Below are positions 16,957 through 62,716 of a stretch of 64,000 nucleotides of DNA, one piece after another. Within the stretch, counting starts at the first letter, position 1; each line of letters opens with the position of its first letter. The position numbers and the translations under genes were made by a program. Where the stretch lies: assembly GCF_001457035.1 (NCBI RefSeq), contig NZ_KQ758618.1, positions 310,001-374,000 on the forward strand. The letters run 5' to 3'. The stretch comes from Fictibacillus enclensis (lineage in GTDB: Bacteria; Bacillota; Bacilli; Bacillales; Fictibacillaceae). The notes under the pieces are model-generated. The model had not been told where the DNA came from and searched no databases. It worked only from the letters and a program-made list of their open reading frames with translations.

Positions 16957-17112
16957 AAACTTATCCAGAGTGGTGAAGGGAACTGGCCCGATGAAACCCG
17001 GCAACCTGCAATTTTTGCAAGGTGCTAACTCCAGCAGAATGTTTATTACATTTTGGAAGATAAGGTAATATGTTTACCTCGTCAGCCTTTCCGAAATGGG
17101 AAGTTTTTTTTA
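16957..17112 (+). ncRNA. SAM-I riboswitch (S-box) of the cysH operon
   Basis: Conserved S-box elements occur in order: CTTATCCAGAGTGGTGAAGG, then GGCCCGATGAAACCCGGCAACC, then GGTGCTAA and TCCAGCAGA, then a hairpin CTTTCC/GGGAAG (17087-17103) with a run of eight U. High SAM should favour termination and lower expression of the sulfate-assimilation genes downstream; the B. subtilis cysH operon is likewise an S-box unit. The terminator stem as I can pair it is short (six pairs), so the real terminator may include more upstream bases. Confidence 0.93.
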
Positions 17113-31170: not shown

Positions 31171-31199
31171 TTGACAGTTTTCCGAATGCATTATATAGT
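31171..31199 (+). promoter_or_regulatory. Sigma-A promoter of trpE
   Basis: TTGACA (31171-31176), 17-base spacer, TATAGT (31194-31199). The predicted transcript starts near 31206, about ten bases before the first GAG triplet of the leader. Confidence 0.82.
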
Positions 31200-31214
31200 G
31201 ATTTACAATCGCAC

Positions 31215-31289
31215 GAGATTAGTTGAGAAGAGTAGAGAAGGTTTAAGAAAGACAATTACAGATTAAGAGCAGAGCCGAGCTGAGATTAG
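31215..31289 (+). promoter_or_regulatory. Split TRAP-binding site in the trpE leader
   Basis: Ten GAG/UAG triplets in two clusters. Cluster 1 starts at 31215, 31220, 31225, 31230 and 31235 (GAG, UAG, GAG, GAG, GAG); cluster 2 at 31267, 31272, 31277, 31282 and 31287 (GAG, GAG, GAG, GAG, UAG). Spacing within each cluster is exactly five bases, i.e. two-base linkers, and the gap between clusters is 29 bases. The ring-shaped trp RNA-binding attenuation protein (TRAP, MtrB) binds such (G/U)AG repeats when charged with tryptophan; B. subtilis uses eleven in the trp leader. Confidence 0.82.
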
Positions 31290-31332
31290 CGGTTATGGTT
31301 GCTAATCTTCGTCTCTCATCAAGAAGGGATGA
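31282..31332 (+). promoter_or_regulatory. Alternative hairpins covering the trpE Shine-Dalgarno
   Basis: GAGATTAGC (31282-31290) pairs with GCTAATCTT (31301-31309), using the last two TRAP triplets as its 5' arm. If TRAP holds those triplets, the 3' arm is free and TCTTC (31306-31310) can pair with GAAGG (31323-31327), which is the Shine-Dalgarno; TCATC/GATGA (31316-31320/31328-31332) would also enclose it. This predicts TRAP-dependent blocking of translation. The pairing was worked out by eye, not by energy calculation. Confidence 0.6.
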
Positions 31333-31337
31333 TTATT

Positions 31338-32843
31338 TTGATTCAACCATCGTTGGAAGAAGTGAAACAATTGGCAGGAACCTACAATTTGATCCCTGTA
31401 AGCATTGAATTATTTGCTGATGTACATACAGTGATTGAACTGTATCAAACGTATTATCAGGAAGATTACTCTTTTTTGCTTGAAAGCGTGGAAGGCGGAC
31501 AGCAATGGGCCCGCTATTCCTATATCGGAAAGAACCCATTTATGGTTGTCTCCTGCAAAAAAGGGCAGACTCAAGTAAAGAAAAAAGATCAGGATGAAAC
31601 CTATTCAGGTCATCCGATTGAAATCCTTAAATCTCTCCTCAACCAATATAAAAGTCCCGCGCACAAAAACTTGCCTCAGTTCACAGGTGGAGCTGTCGGC
31701 TATTTTGGATATGATATTCTCCAATATTTTGAAAAAATCCCGCCTCACAGTAAAGATATTCTTAACACCGACGATATGAAATTTCTGTTTGTCGATGAAC
31801 TGGTTGTTTTTGACCATTTGAGGCAGTCGATCAACATTATTTGCAACCTTCACGTACCCAAAAATTATAACGAAAAACTAATTGAAGAACTGTACGAAGA
31901 GACACGGTTATCGATTGAGGCTACCATGAAACAGCTTGAGCAAAACGTAAAACAACCGGTGCCATCATTTCGCTATCTTCCTCAGCAGGAAGTGGATATC
32001 AGCGGCGTAAAATCCAATTTGAGCAAATCCGAATTTTGTTCGATGGTAGATCAGGCCAAAGAATATATTACAGCCGGAGATATATTTCAGGTGGTTCTGT
32101 CCCAATGTTTTGAAAGTGAGACCAAGGCCGATCCGCTGACGGTTTACCGCGTATTGCGGATTGTGAACCCATCGGCTTATATGTATCTGCTCAAGCTTCC
32201 GGATGAAACCATTGTTGGTTCGTCCCCAGAATTGCTCGTAAAAGTTGAAGGGCAGCGGGTGAGAACCCGACCGATTGCCGGAACACGGCCCCGAGGGAAA
32301 GACATGGATGAAGATCAAGCTTTAGCTGAGGAACTGCTTGCTGACGAAAAGGAAGTTGCCGAGCACTTGATGCTTGTCGATTTGGGAAGGAATGATATTG
32401 GCAGGGTATCGGAGTACGGAAGTGTGGAAGTCTCTTCTTTTATGGAGATTGAACGATACTCTCATGTCATGCATATTGTGTCTGATGTTACCGGACTGCT
32501 TCGTGAAGATAAAGATTTCTTTGATGCCTTGATCTCATGCCTGCCGGCGGGCACATTGTCAGGGGCACCGAAAATCAGGGCCATGCAGATTATCGCAGAA
32601 CTGGAAACACAGGCTCGGGGAACGTATGCCGGAGCCATCGGCTACCTTTCGTTTTCAGGCAACATGGATTCCTGCATTACGATCCGTACCATTCTTTTTA
32701 AAAATGATAAAGCTTATATCCAGGCGGGAGCTGGCATCGTTGCCGATTCCGTTCCCGAGAATGAATACGACGAAACGTTCAACAAAGCCAAAGCATTACT
32801 GAAGGCCATACAAGTGGCTGAAGCTATGGAACAGTATGCTTAA
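31338..32843 (+). CDS. trpE: Anthranilate synthase component I
   Basis: About 501-residue chorismate-binding enzyme that, with a glutamine amidotransferase (TrpG/PabA), makes anthranilate, the first step of tryptophan synthesis. Seen: the tryptophan-binding LLESVEGG, then PIAGTRPRGKDMDEDQ, HLMLVDLGRNDIGRV, PAGTLSGAPKIRAM and GAGIVADSVPENEY. The N-terminal LLES feedback site favours TrpE over PabB. Start TTG 31338 is nine bases after AAGAAGGG; ATG 31329 abuts the Shine-Dalgarno. It stands alone, with no trpDCFBA downstream, and has a TRAP-type leader; the rest of the pathway must lie elsewhere. Confidence 0.88.
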   Translation: MIQPSLEEVKQLAGTYNLIPVSIELFADVHTVIELYQTYYQEDYSFLLESVEGGQQWARYSYIGKNPFMVVSCKKGQTQVKKKDQDETYSGHPIEILKSLLNQYKSPAHKNLPQFTGGAVGYFGYDILQYFEKIPPHSKDILNTDDMKFLFVDELVVFDHLRQSINIICNLHVPKNYNEKLIEELYEETRLSIEATMKQLEQNVKQPVPSFRYLPQQEVDISGVKSNLSKSEFCSMVDQAKEYITAGDIFQVVLSQCFESETKADPLTVYRVLRIVNPSAYMYLLKLPDETIVGSSPELLVKVEGQRVRTRPIAGTRPRGKDMDEDQALAEELLADEKEVAEHLMLVDLGRNDIGRVSEYGSVEVSSFMEIERYSHVMHIVSDVTGLLREDKDFFDALISCLPAGTLSGAPKIRAMQIIAELETQARGTYAGAIGYLSFSGNMDSCITIRTILFKNDKAYIQAGAGIVADSVPENEYDETFNKAKALLKAIQVAEAMEQYA

Positions 32844-39304: not shown

Positions 39305-39342
39305 ACAGGAAACACTGCTACTTTCAGTGTTTCCTATTTATT
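39305..39342. terminator. Terminator between DedA and trpS genes
   Basis: AGGAAACACTG / CAGTGTTTCCT with T-rich sequence after it; lies between convergent genes. Confidence 0.75.
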
Positions 39343-40343
39343 TAGCCTGAATAGCCGATTTTTTCTTTGATTTCATTAAGAAAAGGCTTTGCCTTCTGTC
39401 TCGCTTTTTCTGCTCCATAATGAAGGATTTTATCAATTTCCCGCGAGTTGCTCATCAGCTCTTTGTAGCGCTGTCTGGGCTGCTCTAAATATCTTTTCAT
39501 CACCAGGAAGAGCTCCTTTTTCACTTCTCCCCATCCAATTCCCGACCGATAGTTATTCCGCATTTGCTCCACCTCATTTTCGGAGGCAAATTCCCGGTAG
39601 AGCAAGAAGAGAGAAGACTGATCCGGGTCTTTTGGGGCCTGTGGCGGAGTGGAATCTGTTACGATCCGTTTGATTAATTTTTCCAATTCTTTTTCCTCAC
39701 AAAAGAGAGGGATCGTATTATGATAGCTTTTGCTCATCTTCCTGCCGTCAAGACCAGGAACCATCGCTATTGTTGTATCCACCATGTATTGGGGAAGGGA
39801 GAATGTTTCTCCGAAAACGTGGTTAAAGTGGGTAGCGATGTCCCGTGCAATCTCCACATGCTGAATCTGATCCTTTCCGACAGGGACGATATCCGATTGG
39901 AATAACAATATATCAGACGCCATTAAAATGGGATAAGAGTATACACCAATATTGATGCCCGCATCCTGATCAAGGCTGTTCTGCAGGTTTTGTTCTACTG
40001 CGCTTTTGTAAGCATGGGCACGGTTCATCAAGCCTTTCGGTGTCAGACAGGACAGAATCCAGGACAGCTCCATGATTTCAGGCACATCCGTCTGCCTGTA
40101 AAACGTTGATTGCTCAGGATCGAGACCCAAAGCAAGCCAGCTCGCTGCAATCCTATACACGTAATCCTTAAACTGCTCTCTATTTTGCACGGTAGTGAGT
40201 GAGTGATAATCAGCGATAAAATAATAAGGCGAGTATTCATTACTGGCAGCCAGCTGCAGCGCCGGTTTAATCGCACCGATGTAATTGCCGACATGCGGCC
40301 GGCCGGTTGATTTAATACCTGTCAGGACTACTTTTTTTTCCAT
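39342..40343 (-). CDS. trpS: Tryptophanyl-tRNA synthetase
   Basis: 333-residue class I synthetase that charges tRNA-Trp. HIGH-like motif TGRPHVGNYIG at the N-terminus and KMSKS in GRKMSKSYHNT (about residues 200-206); normal length for bacterial TrpRS. RBS AGGAGGAG lies before ATG. Its expression is controlled by the T-box leader directly upstream (40363-40640), with a UGG specifier. Confidence 0.95.
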   Translation of the reverse strand: MEKKVVLTGIKSTGRPHVGNYIGAIKPALQLAASNEYSPYYFIADYHSLTTVQNREQFKDYVYRIAASWLALGLDPEQSTFYRQTDVPEIMELSWILSCLTPKGLMNRAHAYKSAVEQNLQNSLDQDAGINIGVYSYPILMASDILLFQSDIVPVGKDQIQHVEIARDIATHFNHVFGETFSLPQYMVDTTIAMVPGLDGRKMSKSYHNTIPLFCEEKELEKLIKRIVTDSTPPQAPKDPDQSSLFLLYREFASENEVEQMRNNYRSGIGWGEVKKELFLVMKRYLEQPRQRYKELMSNSREIDKILHYGAEKARQKAKPFLNEIKEKIGYSG

Positions 40344-40362: not shown

Positions 40363-40640
40363 TAAAAAAAGGGGTAACCCGTCCCTGTAAAAGGACGAGT
40401 TACCCCGTGGTGCCACCTTAATTGAACCGCCCCAAAAGCAGTCCGCTCAAATAGTATCCAAAAGCCGAATACTTGTCTCCTTATAACGGCGAGACCCTTC
40501 CGTCAAAGCCTACTCCCAACAGGTTTCGGTTTGAAAGCTCAGAAGCCCATTCAATATCCTTTCCACACTGGCTCTCACCGCCCGCCAGCTCTCTGAAGTG
40601 CAACGTGATATTTACTCTTCTTCTTCAACGCTGAATATGA
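40363..40640 (-). ncRNA. T-box riboswitch of trpS (specifier UGG, Trp)
   Basis: On the minus strand the leader contains the AG-bulge-type AGAGAGCTGG, a specifier loop with GAATGGGC (UGG codon at 40547-40549), the T-box core AAGGTGGCACCACG (40406-40419) and the terminator GGGGTAACTCGTCC / GGGACGGGTTACCCC (40371-40405) with seven U. Uncharged tRNA-Trp would pair with UGG and with the T-box, giving antitermination when tryptophan is scarce. Confidence 0.94.
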
Positions 40641-62394: not shown

Positions 62395-62527
62395 GTACGA
62401 AGTTGCTATATCGTTTGGATTTTAACTGTTTTCTCCTTGAAAATATAAAGATTTGTTCGGAAAACAAACTTTTTTCCGAACGATACTTTCTTTTTCTCAA
62501 GAATTATTTTATAATGTGTCTAACTTC

Positions 62528-62716
62528 ATAGACTCGTATAATAGCAGGGATATGGCCTGCAAGTCTCTACCGGATCGCCGTAAATGATCCGACTACGGGT
62601 GTCGCATAAAACGTGTTGTTTCTTTGTTTAGTGAAACTTCATGTTTCTCTTTCGGGGGATCTAAGATCTGGGAGAACGCTTCATTCGTAGAGAGGCGTTT
62701 TTCCGGGTCTTTTTTT
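62528..62716 (+). ncRNA. Guanine riboswitch of xpt-pbuX
   Basis: Purine aptamer: P1 ACTCGTA (62532-62538) / TACGGGT (62594-62600), P2 AGCAGG-GATATGG-CCTGC and P3 GGATC-GCCGTAAAT-GATCC, with the loop sequences that form the tertiary contact. The specificity base after P3 is C (62593, in GACTAC), which marks guanine, not adenine. A terminator follows: GATCTGGGAGAACGC (62665-62679) / GCGTTTTTCCGGGTC (62695-62709), 15 pairs with G-U, then seven U. High guanine should shut off the two genes downstream. Confidence 0.95.

Follow-up and report, generated by a model that had tools for sequence, protein, structure and literature searches.

The closest described counterpart of the leader considered here is that of the Bacillus subtilis trpEDCFBA operon, in which an array of (G/U)AG triplets, separated throughout by spacers of 2 or 3 nt, lies upstream of trpE and is bound by TRAP, a ring of 11 subunits (excerpts of PMC3913778), and in which TRAP promotes a downstream hairpin that hides the trpE Shine-Dalgarno sequence (excerpts of PMC11255114). 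Translational control by TRAP is also described for B. subtilis trpG, trpP and ycbK (excerpts of PMC11255114), where the protein covers the initiation region directly. The trpE leader of Fictibacillus has the upstream array and the downstream hairpin in common with the operon leader and, as we infer, translational control in common with the three single sites. It is unlike the operon leader in that trpE stands alone, the array is split by 29 nt and no terminator is kept across the genus, a terminator being found instead on a separate trpD leader. It is unlike the single sites in that the last triplet ends 33 nt short of the Shine-Dalgarno sequence, so that refolding of the RNA would be needed here. 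There are ten triplets when they are counted by a published definition of TRAP leaders (excerpt of PMC4347634), the genome contains the TRAP gene mtrB, and a predicted hairpin 3' of the array, UCGUCUCU/AGGGAUGA, pairs the Shine-Dalgarno sequence. Eight of the nine spacers are 2 nt long but the remaining one is 29 nt, and for that reason the leader is best filed, on its sequence, as a variant that would work like a TRAP-regulated leader and not as a plain member of the class.

A nearer comparison is provided by the sister genus g4 of the same family, in which trpE is likewise apart from trpC in all three genomes checked and is preceded by a TRAP-type array. Among the g4 leaders computed (8 chosen of 17), seven have, unlike Fictibacillus, a continuous array of 11-12 triplets with 2-4 nt spacers, and one (G028) has an 11-nt gap, so that a split TRAP site is not wholly unique to Fictibacillus; the longer linker, the Shine-Dalgarno hairpin and the absence of a kept U-tail make up the Fictibacillus form. 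Read by eye, the trpE of g4 is preceded by a terminator-like hairpin and a T-run, whereas Fictibacillus has no kept U-tail.

Architecture of the trpE leader

The window analysed is a stretch of 64,000 nt of the Fictibacillus enclensis genome (G000:C2:310001-374000; C1, C2, C3 and C9 are contigs of this genome), and the features of the leader are collected in Table 1. An earlier note on this DNA had read a consensus promoter followed by two clusters of five triplets in exact 5-base phase with a 29-base gap, and both readings hold. Promoter matches of such quality are common, shuffled sequences giving 1.1 on average; both hexamers are seen in the leaders of all seven genomes of the genus, G001 having TATATT, and transcription would start near 31206. 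The ten (G/U)AG triplets have spacers of 2,2,2,2,29,2,2,2,2, and the pattern KAGNNKAGNNKAGNNKAGNNKAG is matched twice in the window compared with no match in 100 dinucleotide shuffles. The last two triplets were said to lie in the 5' arm of GAGATTAGC/GCTAATCTT, and this hairpin is indeed predicted, with two more G-U pairs. The suggestion that the released GCTAATCTT arm pairs with the Shine-Dalgarno sequence has to be replaced, the best strand for that pairing being UCGUCUCU, eight bases that start at the last base of GCTAATCTT. With the proposed antisequestrator pairing, 31262-31322 is predicted to fold at -18.0 kcal/mol.

Table 1. Parts of the trpE leader and the trpE gene, in positions of the window
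Feature	Position	Strand	Basis
Sigma-A type promoter, TTGACA-17-TATAGT	31171-31199	+	11/12 consensus matches
First triplet cluster, GAG TAG GAG GAG GAG, 2-nt spacers	31215-31237	+	Pattern match, shuffle control
Linker, 29 nt, without (G/U)AG triplets	31238-31266	+	Spacer count
Second triplet cluster, GAG GAG GAG GAG TAG, 2-nt spacers	31267-31289	+	Five in phase, 7/7 leaders
Proposed antisequestrator: AGAG and CGA of the second cluster pair with UCG(U)CUCU, extending the local hairpin	31271-31316	+	Folding
Predicted local hairpin GAGATTAGCGG/TTGCTAATCTT, using the last two triplets, -10.7 kcal/mol	31282-31309	+	Folding
Predicted Shine-Dalgarno hairpin UCGUCUCU (31309-31316)/AGGGAUGA (31325-31332), 8 pairs, -8.1 kcal/mol	31309-31332	+	Folding; arms invariant, 7/7
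Shine-Dalgarno sequence GAAGGG	31323-31328	+	Sequence; invariant in 7/7
trpE, anthranilate synthase component I, TTG start, 501 aa	31338-32843	+	Pfam PF00425 and PF04715

The start of trpE is best read as TTG 31338, since the six relatives have ATG (4/6) or TTG (2/6) at this position and GAAGGG lies at a proper distance from it. An ATG at 31329 was considered as the start and rejected, as it directly abuts the Shine-Dalgarno sequence.

TRAP and the other trp genes

The trpE-type domain PF04715 occurs twice in the genome, in the trpE of the window and in a pabB-like gene on C9 that stands beside a pabA-like gene (the pab names were given by reading). The gene trpC is at C1:1719189-1719920, in a run read as trpD, C, F, B and A with a hisC-like gene, and the trpD operon has a leader of its own with many triplets and a strong terminator, ACCCATGCCTCTTCGTGCATGGGT followed by TTTTTT. 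Since trpC and its neighbours are on C1 with their own leader, trpE is detached from trpDCFBA, as had been claimed.

A search for mtrB, which the earlier note had proposed, found one copy (G000:C1:1727048-1727251; PF02081, E 2.4e-39 in a profile search of the genome), whose product matches solved TRAP chains and which adjoins a GTP cyclohydrolase-like ORF (named by reading); the gene is present in all 34 family genomes. Anti-TRAP (PF15777) was found in none of 12 genomes (seven Fictibacillus and five others of the family), with B. subtilis and three other genomes positive as controls, and TRAP may thus be without its usual antagonist here. The window also has a T-box leader at 40388-40637 (-), about 8 kb from trpE and with the specifier UGG by eye, before a tryptophanyl-tRNA synthetase-like ORF at 39342-40343 (-) (named by reading), a SAM riboswitch at 16958-17066 (+) and a purine riboswitch at 62514-62615 (+).

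Conservation within the genus

The genus set consisted of the seven Fictibacillus genomes (G000 and G001-G006) among 34 genomes of the family, and the leader is present in all seven. Values for these genomes are given below in the order G000, G004, G003, G005, G002, G006, G001. Conserved triplet phase had been looked for by the earlier note in close relatives, and it is kept across the genus, the second cluster having five triplets in phase in 7/7 leaders. Between this cluster and the next triplet on its 5' side lie 29, 28, 18, 12, 11, 16 and 11 nt, the nearest triplet in G003 being a lone extra TAG 18 nt before the second cluster with the first cluster 27 nt away, and the longest chain of non-overlapping triplets numbers 10, 10, 11, 10, 10, 10 and 10. 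The first cluster is irregular in G005 and G001, and at least five upstream triplets are found in every leader. The two strands of the Shine-Dalgarno hairpin, UCGUCUCU and AGGGAUGA, show no change in any of the seven. In the 72 nt upstream of the start, without the final five and leaving out G001 with its shorter hairpin, identity to G000 is 99, 99, 97, 97 and 97% (G004, G003, G005, G002, G006), compared with 87, 76, 49, 53 and 54% at third codon positions of the first 300 trpE codons, and the contrast between 97-99% and 49-87% indicates that the 3' region of the leader is under strong selection. The hairpin of G001, which is shortened, is wrongly placed in the MAFFT alignment (A2), and the hairpin region hardly varies across the genus.

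A model of the 3' part of the leader (R1), built from six leaders with G001 left out, matched 7/34 family genomes at E<=0.001, all of them Fictibacillus and including G001, with three more genomes found only between 0.02 and 0.7; in g4 there was no match at E<=0.001, G020 standing at 0.024. Among 397 genomes drawn from the order and searched with stricter filters there were three matches, again all Fictibacillus, and the four other Fictibacillus absent from these matches were probably not drawn. Within the genomes searched, the exact 3' structure appears to be confined to the genus. We class the leader as a variant form of the TRAP-controlled trp leader that is highly conserved and specific to the genus.

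Folding of the leader

Before the Shine-Dalgarno sequence has been transcribed, CGUCUCU is predicted to pair upstream of the end of the array in 7/7 leaders, with a mean probability of 0.66-0.78. Masking the triplets raised the calculated cost of opening the ribosome site (Shine-Dalgarno sequence through start codon) in 7/7 leaders, from 7.6 to 9.9, 7.2 to 8.5, 5.8 to 10.0, 8.1 to 13.8, 7.7 to 12.7, 7.7 to 12.7 and 4.3 to 11.2 kcal/mol, and this modelled effect is in the direction of repression by TRAP. The start codon alone opens slightly more easily on masking (G000 2.9 to 2.3, G004 1.1 to 1.0, G001 0.7 to 0.2), as does the Shine-Dalgarno sequence alone in G001 when only the triplets are masked (3.0 to 2.5). 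The earlier note had the Shine-Dalgarno sequence become paired when the triplets are occupied; it is predicted to be paired when the array is masked whole, but in the unmasked full-length equilibrium fold, too, its last three bases are largely paired, the fourth base being unpaired there with a probability of 0.00-0.09 in six leaders and 0.13 in G001.

Shuffle controls set a limit on what such energies can say. When shuffled arrays were masked whole, the real masking effect was reached by 96, 95, 79, 94, 77, 83 and 13 of 100, and because shuffled arrays do as well in 6/7 leaders the modelled effect stems from purine richness and not from triplet order. On a simple reading, the GAG array resembles a Shine-Dalgarno sequence and any anti-Shine-Dalgarno strand will pair with such an array. 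When the segment from the array to the Shine-Dalgarno sequence was shuffled instead, the masked opening cost was reached by 11, 43, 18, 5, 10, 10 and 4 of 100 shuffles; for the masking effect the counts were 47, 87, 27, 10, 26, 30 and 0 of 100. The alternative pairings compare at -18.0 kcal/mol for the antisequestrator and -10.7 plus -8.1 kcal/mol for the local hairpin and the Shine-Dalgarno hairpin, and the masking effect does not set the real array apart from shuffled ones. Since it is not specific to triplet order, equilibrium folding is ruled out as proof of a designed switch.

Proposed mechanism and alternatives

The trpE leader is probably a TRAP-controlled translational switch in which one ring sits on all ten triplets and the Shine-Dalgarno sequence is hidden at high tryptophan. 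When tryptophan is plentiful, one TRAP ring would bind the ten triplets, five on each side, with the 29-base linker looped out between the two bound clusters; occupation of the triplets would release UCGUCUCU from the second cluster, and the freed strand would pair with AGGGAUGA, hiding the Shine-Dalgarno sequence so that TrpE is not made. When tryptophan is scarce, the Shine-Dalgarno-like triplets would hold UCGUCUCU and the ribosome site would be more open. Binding by TRAP, the sharing of one ring by the two halves, the looping, and the switch with its direction are what we infer, from the conservation of the leader, the occurrence of TRAP in the genome and what is described for B. subtilis (excerpts of PMC11255114), more than from energies. 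The earlier proposal is supported in part: none of the three outcomes that it named as refuting was obtained, and its core, a translational TRAP target with a 5+5 site, stands, with the pairing strand, the start codon and the strength of the folding argument corrected.

The number of rings is one point at which the mechanism could take another form, in which two rings bind, or in which control depends on the second cluster alone, the first being vestigial. This would be a version of the same explanation and not an addition to it, and we hold it to be rather unlikely: the second cluster has five triplets in phase in 7/7 leaders and adjoins the switch, and the first is irregular in G005 and G001, but at least five upstream triplets are kept in 7/7 and the total of 10-11 matches the 11-subunit ring (excerpts of PMC3913778). 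It is quite unlikely that TRAP acts here mainly on transcription, with the Shine-Dalgarno hairpin and a U-rich tail, or TRAP itself, ending the transcript before trpE. Such a reading would draw on the terminator-like score of 31309-31332 followed by TTATTTTGAT in a terminator scan of this genome, on the terminator-like hairpin seen in g4, and on the 60% A+T of the 48 bases after the array (31290-31337), given that B. subtilis TRAP is able to stop transcripts that have no attenuator, provided that its site is followed by a region rich in A+U (excerpts of PMC3913778). The tail after the Shine-Dalgarno hairpin is not kept, however, being TAGCCATG in G002, G005 and G006 and GTTTAGAATG in G001, whereas the hairpin arms are invariant; termination would moreover fall at the trpE start codon, and the trpD leader of the same genome has a clear terminator of its own. 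The earlier statement that no U-run terminator is visible is accordingly too strong for this genome, where hairpin and TTATTTTGAT are terminator-like, and agrees with the several relatives in which the tail is lost; a weak TRAP-dependent terminator is possible. The pyrimidine strand pairs with purine-rich arrays whatever the order of their bases, as would be expected if the triplets were chance purine-rich sequence and trpE were governed by something else, but with no match in 100 shuffles, no match to the reversed pattern in the genome, the phase kept in 7/7 leaders and mtrB present, this idea is extremely improbable and close to refuted.

Other candidate members of the TRAP regulon

The search for further GAG-repeat leaders that had been suggested gave, besides the array of the trpD leader, five-triplet sites at four more genes: trpP, pabA, one for a DAHP synthase and one unassigned. 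Over the whole genome the five-in-phase pattern has seven matches compared with none for the reversed pattern, two at trpE, one each at trpP (identified by PF17099), pabA (named by reading) and the DAHP synthase gene, and two that overlap at the unassigned gene. Both trpP and trpG are TRAP targets in B. subtilis (excerpts of PMC11255114), and the sites at trpP and pabA are known kinds of TRAP target. The unassigned gene (C3:369493-370210), methyltransferase-like by reading, has six in-phase triplets over its start and no Pfam family at E<=0.001; it was matched in 3/13 genomes (G000, G004 and, with stops, G005) and is a weak candidate.

The DAHP synthase gene (G000:C2:685234-686292) is a candidate target on the evidence of its array, which runs from 685216, covers the Shine-Dalgarno sequence and the start, and comprises eight triplets with spacers of 2,2,2,2,11,2,2. 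Part of it lies within conserved LDELR codons and may be coincidence there. The gene is 3' of ytx-like genes and one gene away from a downstream ccpA-like gene (names by reading). Among 30 listed DAHP synthase loci, which are part of the matches and exclude the copies of G001, G004 and G006, the array is found in the four closest to the query (G000, G003, G002 and G005) and was seen in none of the other 26. An N-terminal chorismate-mutase segment, aligned with RFDPVRERK, is missing in all four array-bearing enzymes, three of which score 15.6-19.1 bits against CM_2 (cut-off 27; the G002 copy was unreported), compared with 73 bits for the other DAHP synthase of the genome. Reading shows no array at that other copy, whose back-to-back neighbour is an aroF-aroB-like operon bearing a T-box (L144, 4333-4564 (+)); the T-box specifier by eye is perhaps UAC (Tyr). 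AroA of B. subtilis combines chorismate mutase and DAHP synthase in one bifunctional enzyme, which prephenate inhibits (excerpt of PMC2311275), and the B. subtilis TRAP targets named in 2026 are the trp operon with trpE and trpD, trpG, trpP and ycbK, DAHP synthase not being among them in the excerpt of that account (PMC13170310). The literature searched, which largely excluded subscription journals and is weak evidence on either point, gave no link between TRAP and DAHP synthase and no paper whose title concerned Fictibacillus, tryptophan and TRAP.

The TRAP regulon may therefore be wider in Fictibacillus. A fuller reading, tentative and a little short of an even chance, is that it is both dispersed and enlarged: the two controls that B. 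subtilis combines in one leader would have been parted, with termination at the trpD leader and translational control at the split site before trpE, and TRAP would also govern entry to the whole aromatic pathway through an array over the ribosome site of the ccpA-linked DAHP synthase gene, whose chorismate-mutase domain has decayed, allosteric feedback having been traded for RNA feedback.

Significance

If true, the trpE leader would provide a natural test of how far a TRAP site can be split, and the drift of the gap from 11 to 29 nt at a constant 10-11 triplets would raise the question of how RNA is wrapped around the ring when part of it is looped out. The two controls of B. subtilis, termination and translation, would be found on two transcripts, each open to separate study, and the wider set of sites would suggest that control by TRAP can extend to DAHP synthase, with which aromatic synthesis begins.
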